This document shows positions 33,226 to 49,165 of a stretch of DNA of 64,000 bases, one piece after another. Position 1 is the first letter of the stretch. Each line of letters opens with the position of its first letter. The notes under the pieces are model-generated. The model was not told the DNA's origin. It saw only the letters and a program-made list of their open reading frames with translations, and made no database searches. The position numbers and the translations under genes were made by a program. Source of the stretch: Phycisphaerae bacterium (GTDB taxonomy: Bacteria; Planctomycetota; Phycisphaerae; UBA1845; UTPLA1); assembly GCA_019636475.1 (NCBI GenBank), contig JAHBXN010000001.1, positions 496,001-560,000 on the forward strand, read 5' to 3'.

Positions 33226-33722
33226 AACCGCTGGTCCGCGTGGCATGGAAGAGGATTTATCCACAGCTTCGACGACGTGTAACTTCCCTGTAACGCAAAA
33301 CCAGCCGACAAACGAACGGAAAACCGCCGTGTCTGAACCCACAACCCGATCGACGCCCAATACACAATGCCGCTCAATCAGCGCAACCTACTGTTATTTC
33401 TGGAATTGCCATGGGGACGTTCGATCACGTTTCCTAACGACGCATATCGTATCTTACCGTATCATGTGCGTTTTGGCGTCTTTGATCGTCCAAAAGCAGT
33501 TGTAACCGCATGTTTCTCCGCAGCATCGAACAGCGAAATCGCTATAATAGCCCCGAACTGTTGCGAAAACCGGGACGTTCTGGAGGAGAAGAGCGCCTGC
33601 GCCGCCGCGATATGCGGTGGATCGAACTCAACACCCAAACGCTTGAATGAAAATGACTGGTGGCCGCGGGGTCGCCGAGCGAATGAATTCAGTTTTCACT
33701 TTTGATCACAGGAGAAGTATCA
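33226..33722. other. Intergenic region upstream of the cysteine-rich protein gene
   Basis: About 500 bases. It holds an isolated perfect DnaA-box 9-mer (TTATCCACA, 33257-33265) and a TATAAT at 33543-33548 with no good -35. An open frame at 33367-33705 has no domain and no ribosome site and is not called. AGGAGA at about 33709-33714 serves the next gene. The region probably holds the promoter and a long leader of that gene. Confidence 0.4.
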
Positions 33723-34760
33723 ATGCGACGAATCACGACTTTGTTGGCATGTTTGGCGGCGTGTAGCCTGGGTATCTCGACGGCGATGGCCGCCGGCCCG
33801 GGTTGCTCCGGCCAGAAGGAAGGCGGCGAGAAAACCGCATCCTGCACCAAGGCGGCTTCAGGCTGCAGTGAGCCGGGAGAATTCCCCCACATGGTGCGCA
33901 TGGTCGGGGACAAGAGCGTCGAGTGCCCCATGACAGCCGAGAAGATGGCGAAAGAGTCGAACACGAAGGTCATGTTCGCCGTCGCCGGTCAGAAGTTTGA
34001 GAAGGAAGGCGAGGCCTGGGCTGCCTTGGCCGACAACTCCGAGATGTTCGTCAAGCACTTCGCGACGATCGCATGCGTGATGGACGGCAAGACCTACTAC
34101 GTCTGCGATGATGGCGCCAAGTGCTGCGCGGACAAGTCCGCGTCGGCCTGCACCAAGGGCGGCGAAATGAAGACCGCCTCGGCCGGAGCAAGCTGCCACG
34201 GCGACAAGCAGGCTAAACTCGCCTCGGCCGATGACAAGCCCGCCACCTGCACCAAGAAGGAAGGCGAGCAGGTCGCGATGAAAGACAGCAAGAGCTGCTG
34301 CGCCACGAAGGGCAAGCTTGCCAGCGCCGAAGAGAAGAAGGAAGGCTGCGGCAAGGGCTGCGTTTCGAAGACCGGTGACGGCAAGGATTGCTGCGGTCCG
34401 CAGGGCCAGAAGATGGCCGTGATCGACGCCAAGACCTGCGCCGAAATGTGCAAGACTGCGAAAGATCAGAAGTTCATGGTCGCCGGCAACACCTACAAGA
34501 CCTGGGACGAAGCCGCCAAGGCTCGCGAACAGGTCATCACCGCGATCCACACCGTGTCGATGAAGTACATCGTGGACGGCAAGGAAGTCGACTGTGCGTC
34601 GAAGGTCTGCCCGACGGCCAAGTCCGAGGGCAAGGTCAAGTACGTCGTCGGCAAGAAGCAGATGGACTGCGAATTGATGGCCCGCGTCGAGCTGGCGAAG
34701 GCGCAGTTCGAAGCGGCAAAGGCCGTCAACGGCACGAAGGCTGTCGCGACCAAGATGTAA
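33723..34760 (+). CDS. Exported cysteine-rich protein with duplicated domain
   Basis: Predicted secreted protein of 345 residues with a signal peptide (MRRITTLLACLAACSLGIST, cleaved after AMA). The mature part has about 22 Cys, including three CC pairs (134-135, 192-193, 223-224), and many Lys. A unit of about 45 residues occurs twice: residues 82-128 (VMFAVAGQKFEKEGEAWAAL ... VMDGKTYYVC) and 249-291 (KFMVAGNTYKTWDEAAKA ... IVDGKEVDC), with a half copy from 304 (VKYVVGKKQMDC). The Cys-rich linker between them is low complexity. I recognise no family. Metal binding or redox buffering in the periplasm is an inference from the Cys content. AGGAGA 7 nt before ATG 33723 and the terminator after the gene suggest a well-expressed single-gene transcript. 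Confidence 0.75.
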   Translation: MRRITTLLACLAACSLGISTAMAAGPGCSGQKEGGEKTASCTKAASGCSEPGEFPHMVRMVGDKSVECPMTAEKMAKESNTKVMFAVAGQKFEKEGEAWAALADNSEMFVKHFATIACVMDGKTYYVCDDGAKCCADKSASACTKGGEMKTASAGASCHGDKQAKLASADDKPATCTKKEGEQVAMKDSKSCCATKGKLASAEEKKEGCGKGCVSKTGDGKDCCGPQGQKMAVIDAKTCAEMCKTAKDQKFMVAGNTYKTWDEAAKAREQVITAIHTVSMKYIVDGKEVDCASKVCPTAKSEGKVKYVVGKKQMDCELMARVELAKAQFEAAKAVNGTKAVATKM

Positions 34761-35240: not shown

Positions 35241-35283
35241 GTTGCAACGGATTTGACCGTTGCCAGGAAATCGGGAGCGCTCG

Positions 35284-36384
35284 GTGTCCATTCAAACCAT
35301 CCGCGAAATGTATCGATACAACGAGTGGGCCAATGATGTCGTGCTGGGCGTTGCGTCGGAGTTGTCAGACGCCCTGCTGGATCAGCAATATGAAATCGGT
35401 CCCGGCCTGATTCGCGAGGCCCTGCGACATATTTATTTCGCGGAACGCATCTGGGGCGTCCGCGTTGGCTGTGCCGATGCCGAGGCACTGCCGAGCCCGG
35501 AATCGCTCCACTCGGTGTCGGAGGTTCGCACCGCTATTTCGGCGCTTGCCGATGTGCGGGCGCGGTGGCTTCAGTCCGTTGACTCCGAAGCACTTGACCG
35601 CATGGTGGAGTACCGCGACATGAAGGGGAACCCGTGGCGCAATCCCCTGCGTGACATCCTCATGCACGGCTGCAATCATGGCATCCATCACCGCGCGCAA
35701 GTCGCCAACATGATCAGCCGCGGCGGCCGGAAACTGAGCAACATCGACTATCTCTTCATGCGTGTCGCCAGACCGACCGTGCGAATCGCCGATGCGTCCA
35801 CGCGCGAGAAACTGGAGAAATTCGGTCGACAGGTCGGTCTGGAGCTGGACACGTCGTGCGGATTCGAAGTTGCCGCGCTACAGACCTACTTCACATACAG
35901 CGATTGGGCGAGCGGACTTGTGCTCGACGCGGCGGCCGGCCTTTCCGATGCCGCACTCGACCGCCGATTCGACATCGGACTCGGGTCGATCCGGCGCACG
36001 CTCCTGCACCTTCAGGCGGCTGACCAGAACTGGCTGGAAAACTGGACCCAGGGATCAAAACCGGGATTCCACGAATTGCCGAAGGAAACGACCATTACCG
36101 AACTTCGCGAGCAATGGAGCCGTAGTATGGCCGGACGCAACGAGTACATCTCAAAGCAGACGGACGAATCACTCATGAAGGAGATTCTGGCCCAGCCGGC
36201 CGAGGGAATCCGCCTATTCTTCCGTCTCGGTGAATCGATGCTGCAACTGTGCGTCCATGCGACACTGCATCGCGCTCAGATCGTGAACATGCTGCGTCAC
36301 AGCGGCGTCACAATCGGAACGCTCGATCTGATCGCCTGGTCGCGCCGTCAGCACGCGGCGAGCGTCCATGCACGTCCGAATTGA
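35284..36384 (+). CDS. Protein with two tandem DinB-fold domains
   Basis: Protein of 366 residues made of two DinB/YfiT four-helix-bundle domains in tandem. Domain 1 (about 1-165) has MYRYNEWANDVVL, LRHIYFAERIWG and HGCNHGIHHRAQVANM. Domain 2 (about 195-350) has TYFTYSDWASGLVL, LLHLQAADQNWL and VHATLHRAQIVNML. Each retains the metal-type His pattern (one His in helix 2 and an HxxxH-like pair in the last helix). The superfamily includes mycothiol- and bacillithiol-dependent transferases and hydrolases, so thiol-dependent chemistry is plausible but unproven. The start GTG 35284 has GGGAG 6 nt upstream and lies 43 nt after the candidate selenoprotein gene. Confidence 0.85.
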   Translation: MSIQTIREMYRYNEWANDVVLGVASELSDALLDQQYEIGPGLIREALRHIYFAERIWGVRVGCADAEALPSPESLHSVSEVRTAISALADVRARWLQSVDSEALDRMVEYRDMKGNPWRNPLRDILMHGCNHGIHHRAQVANMISRGGRKLSNIDYLFMRVARPTVRIADASTREKLEKFGRQVGLELDTSCGFEVAALQTYFTYSDWASGLVLDAAAGLSDAALDRRFDIGLGSIRRTLLHLQAADQNWLENWTQGSKPGFHELPKETTITELREQWSRSMAGRNEYISKQTDESLMKEILAQPAEGIRLFFRLGESMLQLCVHATLHRAQIVNMLRHSGVTIGTLDLIAWSRRQHAASVHARPN

Positions 36385-36444
36385 CCTGCTTCGCGGCGCG
36401 CCGCGAGTCTTGGCAGCCGCCATGACATTCAGGAGCCGATGGCA

Positions 36445-36948
36445 ATGCTCAACATGGACGCGGCGAAGGAACTGTTCCGCTACAGTGACTGGGCGAACGG
36501 CCAGCTCATAATGGCAGCAGCACCGCTCAGCGACGACAAGCTTGATACGCCCGTCGAGATGGGCCCGGGTTCGCTGCGCCGGACGTTGATGCACTTGTGG
36601 GCAGGCGAGCATGTCTGGCTTCAGCGCTGGCAACGCCGAACAGAGACCGCATGGCCTGACGAGGCCGAGCGACTGTCTCCGAAGGAGATCGGGGAACGAC
36701 TATCCAAAGTGAGCGGCATCCGCGCGGCGTTTATCGATTCAGTCAAGCCCGAGTCTCTTGGCCGAGAAATCACCTATCGCGACTCCAAGGGCGACCTGTT
36801 CACCGCCACACTGTCGGACATGCTGATTCAAGGCATTCTTCATTCGGTCCATCATCGTGCTCAGGCAGTCAACATGATTCGCAGGGCCGGCGGTATATCA
36901 GTGGACCTGGATTACATGTACTGGATTCGGAAGCCGACGGGGAAATAG
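36445..36948 (+). CDS. DinB family protein
   Basis: Single-domain DinB-fold protein, 167 residues. It opens AAKELFRYSDWANGQLI, then has LMHLWAGEHVWLQRW (helix 2 His) and GILHSVHHRAQAVNMI (last-helix His residues). It is similar to each half of the preceding tandem protein, so the locus carries duplicated paralogues. ATG 36445 is preferred because AGGAG ends 9 nt before it; the in-frame ATG 36439 would leave only 3 nt. It is 60 nt downstream of the tandem DinB gene. Likely a metal-dependent, thiol-using enzyme; the substrate is unknown. Confidence 0.87.
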   Translation: MLNMDAAKELFRYSDWANGQLIMAAAPLSDDKLDTPVEMGPGSLRRTLMHLWAGEHVWLQRWQRRTETAWPDEAERLSPKEIGERLSKVSGIRAAFIDSVKPESLGREITYRDSKGDLFTATLSDMLIQGILHSVHHRAQAVNMIRRAGGISVDLDYMYWIRKPTGK

Positions 36949-37040
36949 ACTAGAATCCCGATCGTTACGTTCGCGCCAAGGTCTTCGGTGCCGCGGCGCG
37001 ACGTCAGGTCACGCACACCCGGAACCGAAAGGATGAGCGC

Positions 37041-37517
37041 ATGACTCCCAACATCGGCATCAACGACTCGAACAGGCAGGCTGTCTCGCAAATTCTCGCC
37101 GCTGTGCTGGCGGATGAGCACGTGCTTTATGTCAAAACGCGCAATTACCATTGGAACGTGGTCGGGCCCCAGTTCAACGATCTGCACAAATTCCTGGAGC
37201 AGCAATACAATCTTCTTGAAGAATCGATCGACGCGGTTGCGGAACGAATTCGCACGCTCGGCAGCAAGTCACCCGGTACAATGACCGAATTCGTCAAGCT
37301 CGCACGCCTCAAGGAAGAGCCCGGCAAGTTCCCGAACGCCCGATCGATGGTCGGCAATCTCCTGGCCGACCATGAGACGCTGATTCGCCAGCTTCGCACC
37401 GACCTTGAAGCCTGCGGCAGCAGGTTCGGCGACGCGGGGACCAATGACTTTCTGACCGGCTTGATGGAGCAGCACGAGAAAATGGCATGGATGCTGCGGG
37501 CATTCCTCGAAGAATAG
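37041..37517 (+). CDS. dps: Dps family ferritin-like DNA-protection protein
   Basis: Mini-ferritin of 158 residues that forms a 12-mer, oxidises Fe(II) with peroxide and shields DNA in stress. The inter-subunit ferroxidase site is visible: NYHWNVVGPQFNDLHKFLEQQY (His, His, Asp) and EESIDAVAERIRTLG (Glu). The C-terminal four-helix core (LLADHETLIRQLR, LMEQHEKMAWMLRAFLE) is complete. ATG 37041 follows AAGGA by 7 nt. Its place among DinB genes and a selenoprotein suggests a shared oxidative or metal stress theme (inference). Confidence 0.93.
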   Translation: MTPNIGINDSNRQAVSQILAAVLADEHVLYVKTRNYHWNVVGPQFNDLHKFLEQQYNLLEESIDAVAERIRTLGSKSPGTMTEFVKLARLKEEPGKFPNARSMVGNLLADHETLIRQLRTDLEACGSRFGDAGTNDFLTGLMEQHEKMAWMLRAFLEE

Positions 37518-37696
37518 CGGCCCAATCGCCTCCAGCGTTTCATTGTATCGCGCGTGCCCGCGCGAACGGGGATTCGCCAACCATCAAACCATAAACGGCG
37601 GACTTTCCAGCATTTCGGCCTGCCGATCCGTTATCATGCACGACTGGGCGGTAAGGAGAACCTAGCAGTCCTCGTCTTGGGCGATGCGGTATCGAT

Positions 37697-38188
37697 ATGG
37701 CCAAAGCAGCAAGCGGCGAAATTGAATTGCTACTCGAAATGATCGATGATGCCTTCGGCGGGAAGGCATGGCACGGGCCGAATCTTCGTGGCATCCTTCG
37801 AGGCCTGACGGCGGCCGAGGCTTCCGCCCGGCCGGCAGGAGTCAGACACTCGATCGCTGAACTGGTCATACACTGCGGATACTGGAAGTACGCCGTGCGA
37901 CGCAGGCTTCGCGGCGACAAGCGCGGGTCTTTTCCCTTCAAGGGCAGCAATTGGTTTGTCCTGCCGGATTCGCTGGATGACAAAACGTGGCGCAGCATCC
38001 TCAAGCTGCTTGATTCCGAGCACGCCGGGCTGCGAGCGGCCGTTGCGGAGGTTGCGCCGCGTCGTCTGGGTATACGCCTGCCCGGAAGCGAAGTACGCTA
38101 CCGCAAGCTGATTCACGGCATTGCTTCGCATGATGTATATCATGCCGGGCAGATTCGACTACTCAAGGCCATGCTCGCACGAGGATGA
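37697..38188 (+). CDS. DinB superfamily protein (divergent)
   Basis: A 163-residue DinB-fold protein, more distant from the two upstream paralogues. Visible features are RHSIAELVIHCGYWKYAV (helix 2, His) and LIHGIASHDVYHAGQIRLLKAM (last helix, SHDVYHAGQ is a strong DinB signature). The middle (about 85-135) contains FVLPDSLDDKTW. Its stop is 4 nt before the start of the deiodinase-like selenoprotein, so the two are almost certainly co-translated and may work together. The ribosome site of this gene is weak. Substrate unknown. Confidence 0.8.
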   Translation: MAKAASGEIELLLEMIDDAFGGKAWHGPNLRGILRGLTAAEASARPAGVRHSIAELVIHCGYWKYAVRRRLRGDKRGSFPFKGSNWFVLPDSLDDKTWRSILKLLDSEHAGLRAAVAEVAPRRLGIRLPGSEVRYRKLIHGIASHDVYHAGQIRLLKAMLARG

Positions 38189-38192
38189 ACGA

Positions 38193-38969
38193 ATGAGCCA
38201 TCGCAGTCTGAGCCGATTAGATCCACGCCGCCGGTCCGCCCTGACCGAGCGCGCGGCGGTTGTCGGCGTTCTGGTCGCCCTGTCCGGGGCTTTCGGCGGA
38301 TGCCAGTCGCCTGACCCAGTTGCGTCATTCATTCAACGACAGGACTCCCTGCCGCCCGATCAGCGCGTGCCGGACTGGGAACGCACCAAACGGTTGATGT
38401 TGAGGCCTGCCCCGGCCATCGGAGAACCCGCGCCTGATTTCGCCCTTGCGACGCTGGACGGCGCTCGAACGATTCGCATGAGCGAGTTTCGCGAAGCTCG
38501 TCCGCTTGTGCTGATATTCGGCAGCTTCACCTGACCTCCTTTCCGGCGCCAGTCTGGCGCTATCGAGTCGGTCTATCAGAACTACAAGGATCGAGCGAAC
38601 TTCCTGTTCGTCTATGTTTCCGAGGCCCATCCATCGGACGGGTGGCAAATGGACATCAACGAGGAGCAGAAGGTCGTCTATGAACAGCCAACGACCAAGT
38701 CGCGGCGCGATGAGATCGCCCAATCGTGTTGTGAGCGGCTGAAACTGACCATGCCATGCGTCGTCGACACGATCGACAATGCCGTTGACGAATTGTACGC
38801 CGGCTGGCCGGAGCGGATGTTCATCATCGGCACTGACGGCCGCATCGCCTATGCGGGCGGACCAGGGCCATTCGGCTTTCATGTCGAGGAAGTCGAATCC
38901 TGGCTCAAGCGGCACGCGCCGGAAAGGGGCCGATCCGTGTCGGCCGAAACAGCTTCAATCACCCACTGA
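38193..38969 (+). CDS. Iodothyronine-deiodinase-like selenoprotein, lipoprotein (Sec at codon 114)
   Basis: Selenoprotein of 258 residues read through the in-frame TGA at 38532-38534. The redox site reads LVLIFGSFT-Sec-PPFR, equivalent to FGSCT-Sec-PPF of vertebrate deiodinases. It is followed by LFVYVSEAHPSDGW, MPCVVDTIDNAVDELY, ERMFIIGTDGRIAYAGGPGP and a terminal VEEVESWLKRHAP, all in the expected order of the thioredoxin-fold deiodinase family. The N-terminus has a hydrophobic signal ending in GAFGGC (Cys near residue 35), so it is probably a lipid-anchored envelope protein. ATG 38193 has GAGG 8 nt upstream and is 4 nt after the DinB gene. A SECIS-type hairpin follows the TGA. Conservation on both sides of the TGA argues against a simple stop. 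The substrate in bacteria is unknown; reductive dehalogenation or peroxide/disulfide chemistry are options. Confidence 0.92.
38545..38561 (+). promoter_or_regulatory. Putative bacterial SECIS hairpin (deiodinase-like gene)
   Basis: Seven-bp stem GGCGCCA (38545-38551) with TGGCGCT (38555-38561) and loop GTC (38552-38554), starting 18 nt after the TGA at 38532-38534. The loop begins with G, as bacterial SECIS elements require, and the apical stretch AGUCUG is close to the GGUCUG of the element at 35051. Confidence 0.8.
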
Positions 38970-39203
38970 CCGTCACGATGAACGGGTAAGTCACTTCCAC
39001 TTGTTTCCGCGACACCGGGAATCGCGCTCTGTTCATGCGCCGCGTCAATCCTGCACGCCGCGCACCTCACTTCAAACAAAGCACCCACTCAAAGAGCGTC
39101 GCCGCGGCGGCACCGTTCGATTCGGGGGCAGTTCAGATTTGTTGCAACACGAAGCCCTTTCGCCGTACAATGATCCCAGTTGCCGGGTCAGTTCGGAGAG
39201 AGT

Positions 39204-39755
39204 GTGGGTACGGTTACGTCACTTCTTAAGGACGTCCGCGATGGGCTGCCGAATGCGCCAGACCGCCTGTTCGCGCACATCTATTCCGACCTGAAATCCG
39301 TTGCGCGAATGCACCTGGCACGTCACCGGCGCGGCGTACTTCAAGCAACCGAACTGGTCAATGCGGCGTACGCCCGCCTGGCGGCCAAGGAACCGATCGC
39401 CGCCCGCGATCGCTCGGAGATTTTCTACATCATCAGCCGTGCCATGCACGACGTGCTCGTGGAGCGGGTCCGCGCGGACCTCGCCTTAAAGCGCGGTCGC
39501 GAGATGCGCCGGGTACCGCTCATCGAGATTTCGCTCGAACCGCTGCCCCACCCCATCGATTTCATGGACCTGCATCAGGCCCTGAGTGAACTCGGCGCCA
39601 TCGACGAAGCCGCCGCCCACGTCGTCCTGATGAAGTTCTATTCCGGTCTGACACTGGAAGAGATCGCCGAGGCCATGGGCACTACGTTCGCGGTGACGCG
39701 GCGACATTGGGACTATGCCAAGGCTTGGCTGCACGAGCGACTGGCCCATCCCTGA
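39204..39755 (+). CDS. ECF-type RNA polymerase sigma factor, planctomycete subfamily
   Basis: Alternative sigma factor of 183 residues. It contains the region-2 helices (LFAHIYSDLKSVARMHLARH, GVLQATELVNAAYARLA, FYIISRAMHDVLVERVR) and the region-4 helix-turn-helix (MKFYSGLTLEEIAEAMG then FAVTRRHWDYAKAWLHERL). The LQATELVNAAYxRL stretch is typical of the planctomycete sigma group that sits beside Ser/Thr kinases. GTG 39204 is chosen, with GGAG 5 nt upstream; a TTG at 39180 is possible. The kinase gene follows 80 nt downstream. It probably transcribes an envelope regulon under kinase control (inference). Confidence 0.92.
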   Translation: MGTVTSLLKDVRDGLPNAPDRLFAHIYSDLKSVARMHLARHRRGVLQATELVNAAYARLAAKEPIAARDRSEIFYIISRAMHDVLVERVRADLALKRGREMRRVPLIEISLEPLPHPIDFMDLHQALSELGAIDEAAAHVVLMKFYSGLTLEEIAEAMGTTFAVTRRHWDYAKAWLHERLAHP

Positions 39756-39835: not shown

Positions 39836-42034
39836 ATGGCAGCATCGGATGAAACACGGCCGGGCGATTCAAGCTGGAACGAGAAGGAGGTCTTCCTGCG
39901 CGCTCTGACATTTCACGGGGCCGAGCGCGAGGCGTATTTGAAGGAGGCGTGCCCGGACGATGCCGCTCTCGAGCGAATCCGATCACTGATCGAGCATCAT
40001 CAGCAGGCCGACGAGGACCTGCTGAGCGTTTCGGTCAATACGACCGAGACTTCCGCCGAGCTCCCATCCCAGATTGAGGAATTCAAGATCATCCGCAAGC
40101 TGGGTGAGGGAGGCATGGGGGTCGTCTATCTTGCCGAAGACGCGATACTCGGACGCCGTGTCGCGCTGAAAGTTCTGGCGCGCCACAAGATCAATTCCGA
40201 GCACGCCCTCGCGCGCTTTCGCGAAGAGGCCCGAAGCGCCGCAGCGCTCAAGCACCCCGCGATTGTGCCTGTTTTCAAGTTTGGTCAGTCGGGCGAAGAC
40301 TACTTCATCGTTTCGGAGCTGGTGGAAGGTCAAACGCTCGCCGGGCTGATTCAAAGCAAGCGGAATGAGTTTCGGGCACGGCCGCATGAAGACGCCCGAG
40401 ACTGGCACAAGCAGGCCGCAGAGATTCTGGCGGTCATTGCGGATGCGCTGGACTGCGCGCATCGGGCGGGGATCGTCCATCGCGATGTAAAGCCGTCCAA
40501 TATTCTGCTGGACCATGACCGGGGGCCGCGCCTGACGGATTTCGGTATCGCCAAGCACGTAAACGACGAAGTGCCAAGTCCCCACTCCGGCGTCATCGGC
40601 ACCGTGCACTACATGAGCCCGGAGCAGGCGGCCATCGCGGAAACGCAGGTTGATCAGCGCAGCGATATCTTCTCGCTGGGCATTGTGCTGTACGAATTAC
40701 TTTCGTTTCGACTCCCATTCGACGGACCAACCATTCATCAGGTTCTGCAAGCGGTGATGTACGTCGAGCCCCAGAAGCTGCGTACGATCGATCGCTCCAT
40801 CGCGCAGGACCTCGAAACGATTTGTCACAAAGCCCTTGAGAAGCAACCCCATGATCGCTACCAGACGGCAGCCCACATCGCCGCAGATCTGCGCTGTTAC
40901 CTCACCAACGATCCGATTCTTGCCAGACCCCCCGGATTGAAGCACCGGATTGTCCGCTATGTTCGACGCCACCGGCGCCGTGTTGTCGCCGGAGTCATCG
41001 CTGCGTTGCTTGCAGCCATTGCATTGCTGTCGTGGAACGTCGTCGCCCAGACTCGACGGAGCATGTCACACATTCTCGCTACGTGCGAGGATCAGGATGC
41101 GCGACTATGGGTTCGGCCAATTGGCGGTTCCACCGCCAGCATTCCCAAATCGATGGACATGGGCAACCTGCCTGTCAAATTCGACCTGCCGACCGGCCTT
41201 TATCGTCTCACGGCGACTTCGGGTGACGGCTTCAGCGAAGCCACGCTGCTGATCACGACGACCGGCGACGAACGCACGATTGAAATGCCGCCTCCGAAGC
41301 TGATTCCCAACGATCCGAACATGGCCTATTTCGAGGCTGGTCAGGTCATGTCCGGCGTGCCTGGTCGTACCGGCTCGCAGTCACTCCGGGCGGTCCAACT
41401 GGATCCTTTCTATATCGATTTGGCGGAAGTCAGCAACGCGGAATACCGGCGCTTTGTCGAAGCGACCGGTCACCGGCGTCCCATCCATTGGGACAATCCC
41501 GATTTCGAACCGGGCCTCGATGATCGTCCGGTCGTGGGAGTGACCTGGGACGACGCCAACGCCTACTGCCGTTTCGTTCGGAAACGGCTTCCCACGGCAG
41601 ATGAGTGGGAGCATGCGATGCGCTGGCCGGATGGCCGGCTGGTGCCATGGGGAAGCCAGAGCCCAACTGAACTGCGGATCACCTCGATTGATGCAGCTGA
41701 GCGGTCTTCCTCGATCAACATGAGCGTTGCAATTGCTGAATACATCGCGAACACTCGGCCGGTTCGTTCCGACCAGTCGCTCCAAAGCTCGGTCGGCCTG
41801 TTTCACGGCGCAACCAATGTCAGCGAATTCACGGAGACGGTCGTCAGTGAGATCATGGGGCAGGTTGTCCTGAAAGGTGCTTCGTGGGCGAATCTGCCCG
41901 ACCAATGGGACCTGGCCAACAGCCGAAGCTATCCGATGGAAGTTGTGGATGCGTCAGGCCGGAGTCAGCCAGCCTGGTCGATGAAGATTGGTTTTCGCTG
42001 CGCGCGGAGCGCATTGCACAAACCGAGAGAGTAA
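39836..42034 (+). CDS. Ser/Thr protein kinase fused to FGE/sulfatase-modifying-type domain
   Basis: Receptor-like protein of 732 residues. Kinase domain about 83-345: GEGGMGVVY, Lys112 in VALKVL, HRDVKPSN (Asp217), DFG (235-237) and MSPEQA, all intact. One membrane helix follows (about 385-405, VVAGVIAALLAAIALLSW), then a beta-rich PEGA-like stretch. The C-terminal domain (about 490-725) is of the formylglycine-generating-enzyme type: LDPFYIDLAEVSNAEYRRFV, PVVGVTWDDANAYCRF, RLPTADEWEHAMRW and a final IGFRCAR. Whether that domain is catalytic or only a binding module is not clear. It is located 80 nt after the sigma-factor gene. The ribosome site is weak. Confidence 0.92.
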   Translation: MAASDETRPGDSSWNEKEVFLRALTFHGAEREAYLKEACPDDAALERIRSLIEHHQQADEDLLSVSVNTTETSAELPSQIEEFKIIRKLGEGGMGVVYLAEDAILGRRVALKVLARHKINSEHALARFREEARSAAALKHPAIVPVFKFGQSGEDYFIVSELVEGQTLAGLIQSKRNEFRARPHEDARDWHKQAAEILAVIADALDCAHRAGIVHRDVKPSNILLDHDRGPRLTDFGIAKHVNDEVPSPHSGVIGTVHYMSPEQAAIAETQVDQRSDIFSLGIVLYELLSFRLPFDGPTIHQVLQAVMYVEPQKLRTIDRSIAQDLETICHKALEKQPHDRYQTAAHIAADLRCYLTNDPILARPPGLKHRIVRYVRRHRRRVVAGVIAALLAAIALLSWNVVAQTRRSMSHILATCEDQDARLWVRPIGGSTASIPKSMDMGNLPVKFDLPTGLYRLTATSGDGFSEATLLITTTGDERTIEMPPPKLIPNDPNMAYFEAGQVMSGVPGRTGSQSLRAVQLDPFYIDLAEVSNAEYRRFVEATGHRRPIHWDNPDFEPGLDDRPVVGVTWDDANAYCRFVRKRLPTADEWEHAMRWPDGRLVPWGSQSPTELRITSIDAAERSSSINMSVAIAEYIANTRPVRSDQSLQSSVGLFHGATNVSEFTETVVSEIMGQVVLKGASWANLPDQWDLANSRSYPMEVVDASGRSQPAWSMKIGFRCARSALHKPRE

Positions 42035-46867: not shown

Positions 46868-49165
46868 CTATTCGCATACATGGTCGACCAGTAAGCGTGC
46901 GGTGAATTCGGCAATATCATCCAGTGAGAGGCTGCCGTCGGCGACCATGTCCGCACACCCGCACCCCTCGGCGATCGATTCGCCGATCATGCAATCGACG
47001 AACGCCTGTATATCCTGGCCATCGCGAACGTGGTCTCCCGTCAGATCCCCCGGACAGGAAGTGCAGTTGCCCGGTACCTGGCATTCGTCCGGAATCCCAT
47101 TCTCATCCAAGTCCAGACTTGAGCCGCAACGCACATCGCATTCGTCGAGTATACCGTTTTCATTGCAGTCACTCTCCGAAGTAGATCGATTATGAAACAC
47201 GACGCATGTTGCGGCAGTCAGATTCGCGACGGCAAAATCGCTGCGGCCGTCGTCATTAAAGTCTCCGATGGCCAGACCGTGACACCCTGAATTTTGGCCA
47301 AAATCCCATGCATATGCCGGCATGAAGCCGCCGTTGCCCTCATTTTTATATGCTGTCACAGTGTTGGACCCGTAGTTAGCGATCACAACATCAACCCAGC
47401 CATCGGCGTTCAAGTCGAGCGCGCGAATTCGCCTTGGTGCGCTGCCGGTCAACATCGTTGTGAGAGCCGTAAACTGGCCGGATCCGTTATTCCGAAGCAG
47501 TGTGGCTGAGCCGGATGACGCATTGACCACGCCGATATCAATCGCTCCGTCGTTATTCCAATCGGCGAGCGTCACGTCGTATGGGAACATTCCGACTGAA
47601 TAAACCTCGGGCGATGTGGAGAATTGACCACCGATGTTCCGTACGATGGACACTGAGCCGACGATATTCGCATCACCGTTGCCAGAGATGATATCGAGGT
47701 CGCCATCGCCGTCGACATCCGCCAAAGCGACACTGCGCGGACGCACACCATTACCCGAACCATTCAGCACGGTGACCGCTTCTGCGCTACCAAACACCAG
47801 ATTACCCATGTTGCGATGAACGCACACAGATGGGCTATTCGCCTCGGCCCGGCCGACGAGAAGGTCGATAAAGCCATCGCCGTCGATGTCACCCGCAGCA
47901 ACACCGAACGGCTGGTTCCCAGTCACGAACGGTGCAACTGGGACGAACTGCCCACCGCCCTGGTTCCGCAAAAGCGTGATTGAGTTTGCGGTAAAACAAG
48001 TAACGGCCATGTCAGGAAGGCCGTCATTATCGAGGTCGGCAATGCAGACCGCGCGCGGCCCGTTGCTGACCGTGATGGGTGCCGCCATTGTGAAGGTCCC
48101 GTCGCCGTTATTCAAGAATAACGAGATCGTGCTATCGGAGGAATTCACGACAGCGAGATCGATGTCGCCATCCATATCCAGATCCCCTTCAGCAACGAAC
48201 CCAGGTCCGCCACCTGTCTGCATCGACGCCACAATGCTGAAGTCGATCGACTCGATGAGATCGGTTGTGTCCGGCACACCGTTTCCGTTGCAGTCATCCG
48301 AGAGCACGACCACCTGAGTCGCGTCAGCCGCGCTCACATTGGCGCCGCCCAACGGTAGTTCATTCAGGACTGCACTGGCATTAACGAATACAATGAAGTA
48401 GTAAACACCGGTCTCGCAGGCCGGCGCAGGAACAGACGCCGACGATTGATATGTCTCATTCGGAGGCAGCGAATTCGTATGCGCGATTTCCGCCACGAAG
48501 AGGTCTCCGGGATCAAATATCGTATCTTCGGAGAGGTAGACATGGTCAACCCATGTACCCGATGCGACGCCGGGGCCGATGTTTCGCACGGTCCAGCTCA
48601 CATCGGCATTCTCGCCATAAATCACAAACTCCGATGCAGTCACGCTCTCCAGCGATAGATCCGGCAAGGCCGCGTAGATGCTGACTTCCCGGGAGACGGC
48701 GTCACGCGATTCCCGATCGTCTGCCGACTCTTGATAGACACTCACTTCACAAGAGGTCGCATTCGATAAGTTCATATCGACGATCGAAACGACATAAACA
48801 CTAACTTCGCGTGATACGGCATTCGTGGCGGGCGCTTCAGGAACCGCGCCAACCAGGACGGAGACTTCGCGCGACACTGCATCCGTGTCAACGGTTTCGA
48901 GGGAAGATTGGAGATAGACGCTGACTTCCCGTGAAACGGCGTCCATCGGCAGTTCAGTGCCGATAGAGTCATTCAGCACAGAAATCTCCAGGGAAACCGC
49001 GTCCCCCGTATCCGCCAATAAGTCCGCCAGAAACAAATTCGACAATCCCAATATCGCGACCATCGCCGCGCGTCGCAACCCGGTTGACGATCGCAAGCCG
49101 CCACTCAGGAACGAGTGCCGATGACGTTCGGATTGCTTCGATTGTTTTGAAAGTCGGAATGTCAT
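46868..49165 (-). CDS. Exported protein: six 20-residue repeats, CARDB, FG-GAP/VCBS repeats, dockerin-like end
   Basis: Secreted protein of 765 residues. After a hydrophobic signal (about 33-50) come six copies of a unit with DAVSREVSVY as core, exactly 20 residues apart (cores at 55, 75, 95, 115, 135 and 155). A CARDB-type domain follows (about 168-285). Then come about seven FG-GAP/VCBS propeller repeats (about 300-650), each with a calcium loop such as GDLDMDGDIDLAV and ADVDGDGDLDII, then DCNENGILDEC and DENGIPDEC stretches. The final dockerin-like part is GDLTGDHVRDGQDIQAFVDC. It is an extracellular or surface adhesin or structural protein by composition; no catalytic motif is seen. Confidence 0.85.
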   Translation of the reverse strand: MTFRLSKQSKQSERHRHSFLSGGLRSSTGLRRAAMVAILGLSNLFLADLLADTGDAVSLEISVLNDSIGTELPMDAVSREVSVYLQSSLETVDTDAVSREVSVLVGAVPEAPATNAVSREVSVYVVSIVDMNLSNATSCEVSVYQESADDRESRDAVSREVSIYAALPDLSLESVTASEFVIYGENADVSWTVRNIGPGVASGTWVDHVYLSEDTIFDPGDLFVAEIAHTNSLPPNETYQSSASVPAPACETGVYYFIVFVNASAVLNELPLGGANVSAADATQVVVLSDDCNGNGVPDTTDLIESIDFSIVASMQTGGGPGFVAEGDLDMDGDIDLAVVNSSDSTISLFLNNGDGTFTMAAPITVSNGPRAVCIADLDNDGLPDMAVTCFTANSITLLRNQGGGQFVPVAPFVTGNQPFGVAAGDIDGDGFIDLLVGRAEANSPSVCVHRNMGNLVFGSAEAVTVLNGSGNGVRPRSVALADVDGDGDLDIISGNGDANIVGSVSIVRNIGGQFSTSPEVYSVGMFPYDVTLADWNNDGAIDIGVVNASSGSATLLRNNGSGQFTALTTMLTGSAPRRIRALDLNADGWVDVVIANYGSNTVTAYKNEGNGGFMPAYAWDFGQNSGCHGLAIGDFNDDGRSDFAVANLTAATCVVFHNRSTSESDCNENGILDECDVRCGSSLDLDENGIPDECQVPGNCTSCPGDLTGDHVRDGQDIQAFVDCMIGESIAEGCGCADMVADGSLSLDDIAEFTARLLVDHVCE
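48646..49003 (-). repeat. Six in-frame 60-bp repeats (DAVSREVSVY units)
   Basis: The coding repeat lies within the exported protein above; the period is exactly 60 bp (20 codons). The first copy reads DAVSLEISVL and the fifth NATSCEVSVY; the others keep xAVSREVS. The residues between the cores vary freely. Confidence 0.85.

Follow-up and report, generated by a model that had tools for sequence, protein, structure and literature searches.

Deiodinase-like proteins of bacteria, with either selenocysteine (Sec) or cysteine forms and a bacterial SECIS, were described in the Sargasso Sea study of 2005, where a redox role was suggested for them (PMC1088965). According to a 2026 review, such families are largely uncharacterised in function (PMC13188914). 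For twenty years, deiodinase-like selenoproteins of bacteria have figured in lists with no function attached.

We analysed a 64,000-nucleotide stretch of the genome of a Phycisphaerae bacterium (contig JAHBXN010000001.1; hereafter the window), which contains a gene that belongs to this already described family. Judging from comparison with its homologues, we propose with a probability of about 0.6 that the product is a thiol-dependent envelope selenoenzyme of the peroxiredoxin/ResA type, that its Sec would be recycled through a Sec-Cys bond, and that it is no physiological thyroid-hormone deiodinase.

A gene of the PF00837 family read through an in-frame TGA

The initial annotation had placed a deiodinase-like selenoprotein gene with an in-frame TGA in this part of the window, and its coordinates proved exact (Table 1). 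Translation with table 11 breaks the gene into two separate ORFs, one ending at 38534 and one starting at 38649, just as had been foreseen for standard gene calling. The upstream DinB-type ORF has its stop at 38188.

Table 1. Features of the selenoprotein gene, in window coordinates
Feature	Position	Strand	Evidence
Probable ribosome-binding site, GAGG, 8 nt before ATG 38193	38181..38184	+	sequence, inferred
Read-through CDS, deiodinase-like selenoprotein, 258 aa	38193..38969	+	PF00837/Dio matches, in-frame homologues
Start ATG (38193) and final stop TGA	38967-38969 (stop)	+	sequence
Predicted signal peptide with lipobox, lipidated Cys37 at 38301-38303	38193..38303	+	pattern match, near relatives
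PF00837 domain, residues 75-241, peroxiredoxin-like thioredoxin fold with deiodinase insertion	38415..38915	+	profile, AlphaFold, PDB matches
TGA decoded as selenocysteine 114, motif GSFTUPPF	38532..38534	+	Dio alignment, homologue comparison
Bacterial SECIS hairpin, 7-bp stem, loop GUC with G first	38545..38561	+	folding, covariation
Codon of Cys179, conserved helix-alphaD Cys, proposed resolving partner of Sec114	38727..38729	+	alignment, role inferred
Codon of Pro206, in the place of Dio3 Phe258	38808..38810	+	alignment

Searched with PF00837, a check that had been called for, the read-through product gave a match with E=1.2e-37 and a score of 130 bits against a curated cut-off of 27. The match spans the TGA, which agrees with the earlier observation of similarity on both sides of this codon. 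AhpC-TSA (38.3 bits) and Redoxin (30.5 bits) also scored above their Pfam cut-offs. The closest solved structures by sequence were crystal structures of the catalytic cores of mouse Dio2 (9h48, 5e-28) and Dio3 (4tr3, 8e-28), the active-site residue of which aligns with residue 114, and the motif EAHPSDGW is identical to that of the animal enzymes. In a profile search of the 4.4-Mb genome this was the sole PF00837 gene, with one TGA inside.

We fetched homologues and compared them at the TGA. Had close homologues all ended at this codon, the selenoprotein reading would have lost its ground; instead, 103 of them continue in frame through a TGA and 14 have Cys there. We rejected decoding of the TGA as Trp or as a plain stop: homologues show Cys rather than Trp in this position, and a TGA also serves as the gene's own final stop.

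SECIS hairpin and selenocysteine machinery

The 7-bp hairpin with loop GUC that had been reported 11 nt after the TGA is present (GGCGCCA-GUC-UGGCGCU), and the region 38532-38580 folds with a dG of -18.7 (z = -2.6). A scan of 38000-39100 against Rfam gave nothing beyond chance matches, with no known RNA family among them, and the SECIS assignment rests instead on a comparative test. Among 31 homologues, mostly from the same order, 96.3% of 217 stem cells pair, as against 33–49% in controls with slid partners; six of the seven stem pairs show compensatory changes on both sides, the covariation score was reached by none of 500 shuffles, and RNAalifold independently recovered the same helix. This set omits six near rows (one is a duplicate, the remaining five are divergent or differ in loop length); when all 36 distinct near sequences are counted, 88% pairing is obtained. 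The hairpin is displaced by a few bases in distant family members. With the best hairpin of each homologue chosen regardless of loop sequence, a G occupies one of the first two loop positions in 99/103 Sec homologues versus 6/14 Cys homologues. By these comparisons, the hairpin is a real SECIS.

The initial annotation had made its reading depend on selA, selB, selC and selD, and all four are present in this genome (completeness 95%). The selB gene (contig C4; 337 bits with its neighbour match, above cut-off) lies directly upstream of selA, which was identified by eye from the ORF beside selB, by sequence rather than by profile. A tRNA-Sec (selC) with anticodon UCA was found as well. The selD gene (371 bits; locus L020, 1396-2631 on the minus strand of contig C2) is itself a selenoprotein gene, with an in-frame TGA where the catalytic residue is encoded (YANCAGUAGK). 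Fourteen of 61 related genomes have a clear PF00837 match that contains a TGA; selB was above cut-off in 12 of these, and the other two are 75% and 80% complete.

If the TGA were an ordinary stop, as standard gene calling has it, the locus would encode a truncated protein or be a decaying pseudogene. Similarity in frame on either side of the TGA, the presence of TGA at the exact codon in the 103 homologues and of Cys in the 14, the covarying SECIS and the full Sec machinery all speak against this, and we give it hardly any credence. On the comparative evidence 38193-38969 is a genuine bacterial selenoprotein gene of the PF00837 family, in agreement with the overall reading of the initial annotation, which comparison, machinery and SECIS support.

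Distribution and genomic neighbourhood

Of 392 genomes sampled from the phylum, 118 carry a PF00837 gene; the figures are 74 of 397 for the class and 17 of 61 for close relatives (14 above the family cut-off). Most of these genes have exactly one in-frame TGA. No PF00837 gene occurred in 14 control genomes, and presence is patchy in the family to which the window belongs. A contig scan revealed one related locus, on Phycisphaera mikurensis isolate Bin_18_1, with a sequence identical to that of a locus from the window's order (L075); a plasmid search gave one distant match (25% identity).

The gene is surrounded by DinB-type ORFs, a Dps-type ferritin, an ECF sigma factor and a kinase. A redox operon suggested by these neighbours was considered and rejected: tblastn of homologous loci found no upstream genes conserved beside the homologues, and the neighbours therefore lend no functional support. 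The DinB-superfamily ORFs form a run around the ferritin gene at 35260-38188. Downstream, the sigma factor gene (39180-39755) precedes a gene in which a protein kinase domain is fused to an FGE-sulfatase (sulfatase-modifying factor) domain (39836-42034). Further away in the window we noted a 352-aa, Cys- and Lys-rich, apparently secreted and possibly metal-binding protein with no Pfam match (33702-34760), and an ORF on the minus strand (46868-49165) with a repeated DAVSREVSVY-like motif near the N-terminus followed by FG-GAP-like repeats.

Predicted fold and envelope location

An AlphaFold model built from 67 window and locus sequences had a mean pLDDT of 93.1. Its best PDB matches were Dio3 (E 1.2e-14) and Dio2, followed by ResA, DsbE-like proteins, AhpE and other peroxiredoxins, and a sequence-profile search agreed. 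Alignment, model and PDB matches together place the protein in the deiodinase fold with its EAH motif.

The proposed N-terminal lipoprotein signal was borne out as a pattern match: LVALSGAFGG-C37 has the form expected of a lipobox, and this feature recurs in most near relatives, eight loci of the window's clade among them; others have a plain hydrophobic segment. The protein is probably exported and held on the envelope by lipidated Cys37; with an N-terminus of this kind the active site would face outside the cytoplasm, like that of ResA.

The reaction shell of Dio3 is kept, the thyronine pocket is not

We aligned 117 bacterial homologues with the two mouse enzymes. The residues S111, T113, U114, Y141, E144 and H146 of our protein correspond to identical Dio3 residues (S167, T169, U170, Y197, E200 and H202, respectively), as do R172 (R225) and R208 (R260). 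Five other Dio3 residues are replaced: C168 by F112, H219 by P166, C239 by M187, F258 by P206 and R275 by P224. About half of the other homologues have Arg at the R275-equivalent position; in Dio2 the residue is Lys, so that R275 taken by itself is no strict criterion. Pro206 is shared by 116/117 bacterial homologues and is probably the cis-proline of thioredoxin folds. Structural equivalents of the thyronine-site residues of Dio have been given (PMC11592359); in Dio3 the Phe258Pro substitution reduces activity, and roles of H219 and R275 have been discussed (PMC7506546). Since S/T/U/Y/E/H/R are kept and H219, F258 and R275 are replaced, the reaction shell of an iodothyronine deiodinase is common to both proteins and its thyronine pocket is not. 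For the same reason the 'deiodinase fold' of the initial annotation holds as a description of fold, by PF00837, the EAH motif and the Dio structures, and is not to be equated with activity.

These residues also bear on the idea that the protein is a true reductive dehalogenase, in which Sec would strip a natural halo-aromatic compound of its iodine or bromine at the envelope. Dio3 and Dio2 being the nearest solved structures, the retention of all eight Dio3 residues listed above and the identical EAHPSDGW would fit it. Moreover, all residues of the proton relay proposed for Dio are kept save H219, which weighs against our main reading and leaves room for dehalogenation chemistry. Yet the same conserved shell could support other redox chemistry, the equivalents of Phe258, His219 and Arg275 are all Pro here, the proximal Cys is absent, and no halogen-related neighbours were seen. 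We consider such a dehalogenase distinctly unlikely.

Five changes suffice on the tree to account for the Sec, Cys and animal states, and the animal enzymes adjoin the window's clade, a position that would suit a dehalogenase although the fork is not strongly supported (SH-aLRT 87). With this weak fork and sampling of one phylum, we do not claim a bacterial origin of the animal enzymes. A bolder version, in which, among bacteria, the window's lipoprotein clade would stand nearest to the animal deiodinases and would already dehalogenate natural halo-aromatics, animal thyroid-hormone deiodination having arisen from it through a move of the resolving Cys and a change from the cis-Pro to Phe258, appears very improbable to us.

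A possibly mobile partner cysteine and the proposed mechanism

A second Cys is present in every one of the 103 Sec homologues; 97 have it in helix alphaD, three before Sec and three in loop D. The alphaD Cys is mostly at 179, otherwise at 173, 174 or 180, and is found in 11/14 Cys-form homologues. The three proteins with a Cys just before T-U and no alphaD Cys are L044, L145 and the very divergent L067, which may belong to another family; this is the place of the Cys of animal Dio1 and Dio3, and in human DIO1 the proximal Cys124 makes the corresponding bond (PMC9141512). L029, L030 and L073 have a loop-D Cys and no alphaD Cys. The swap between alphaD and proximal Cys gave a Fisher p=1.1e-4, a value obtained on related and hence non-independent sequences with tests picked after viewing the alignment. 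The partner Cys seems to relocate in the clade of L072, L029, L030, L044 and L073, of which L072 is the only protein with both an alphaD and a loop-D Cys.

Nine homologues have no normal TU/TC motif. In eight of them (L102-L106 and L108-L110, from genomes belonging to the same class) residue 114 is Ser, Glu or Ala instead of Sec or Cys; these are apparently chalcogen-less relatives, most of which lack the alphaD Cys. In the remaining one, L107, residue 114 is Cys. The alphaD Cys is present in 1/9 (L106) and Arg208 in 0/9, counts in which the chalcogen-less proteins may represent few lineages. The overall pattern of second Cys residues is the trace to be expected of a Sec-Cys redox pair whose partner is mobile in evolution.

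The protein could instead be a ResA/TlpA-like thiol-disulfide oxidoreductase acting on thiols or disulfides of envelope proteins rather than on small oxidants, as its best fold matches after Dio (ResA and DsbE-like proteins) and its similar extracytoplasmic anchoring would allow. It has no CxxC or UxxC, however, Sec+3 being Phe in 101/103 Sec homologues, and its second Cys lies at a distance, in helix alphaD; we regard this reading as unlikely. The canonical peroxiredoxin motif is PxxxT/SxxC. In our protein the AhpC-TSA/Redoxin domain is present and Ser is at -3 from Sec, while -7 is Leu107, and the missing Pro of the motif counts against a peroxiredoxin-like reading.

Under the peroxiredoxin/ResA-type reading that we prefer, SelB and tRNA-Sec of the cell itself insert Sec114 at the UGA, steered by the hairpin, as the comparative evidence shows, and the protein is predicted to be exported and then anchored in the envelope through Cys37. 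On attacking its oxidised substrate, for which a peroxide is the most likely candidate, Sec114 would become oxidised itself; Cys179 of helix alphaD would then join it in a selenenylsulfide, and this bond would be reduced by a thiol-disulfide reductant of the envelope. The comparison yields a testable mechanism with a chalcogen at 114, a movable partner Cys and Pro at the Phe258 gate of the thyroid enzymes. If it is true, the family would join the thiol-dependent peroxidase-like enzymes and give hints at changes that accompanied thyroid-hormone specialisation. Members of the family are common in the phylum and mostly encoded with Sec, and standard annotation would break their gene in two.

Comparison with known systems

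The protein resembles the Sargasso Sea family in PF00837, Sec position, the G of the SECIS apical loop and the occurrence of Sec and Cys forms (PMC1088965). The review of 2026 lists the motif UxxC, whereas our protein and almost all fetched homologues have UPPF or UGPF and the second Cys in helix alphaD; the lipoprotein anchoring predicted here is not mentioned there (PMC13188914). Mouse Dio2 and Dio3 share with it the fold, SxTUPPF, EAHPSDGW, the R225 and R260 equivalents and the deiodinase insertion, but have a transmembrane anchor in place of the lipobox signal, and H219, F258, R275, C168 and C239 of Dio3 are not retained. Peroxiredoxins (AhpC-TSA/AhpE) and ResA are similar in the AhpC-TSA/Redoxin profile scores above cut-off, in fold and in the probable cis-Pro; they differ in that our protein has the deiodinase insertion and EAH and lacks both the Pro of PxxxT/SxxC and CxxC. 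New to the family are the SECIS covariation, the distribution in the phylum, the pattern of Pro206 and partner Cys, and the lipoprotein form.
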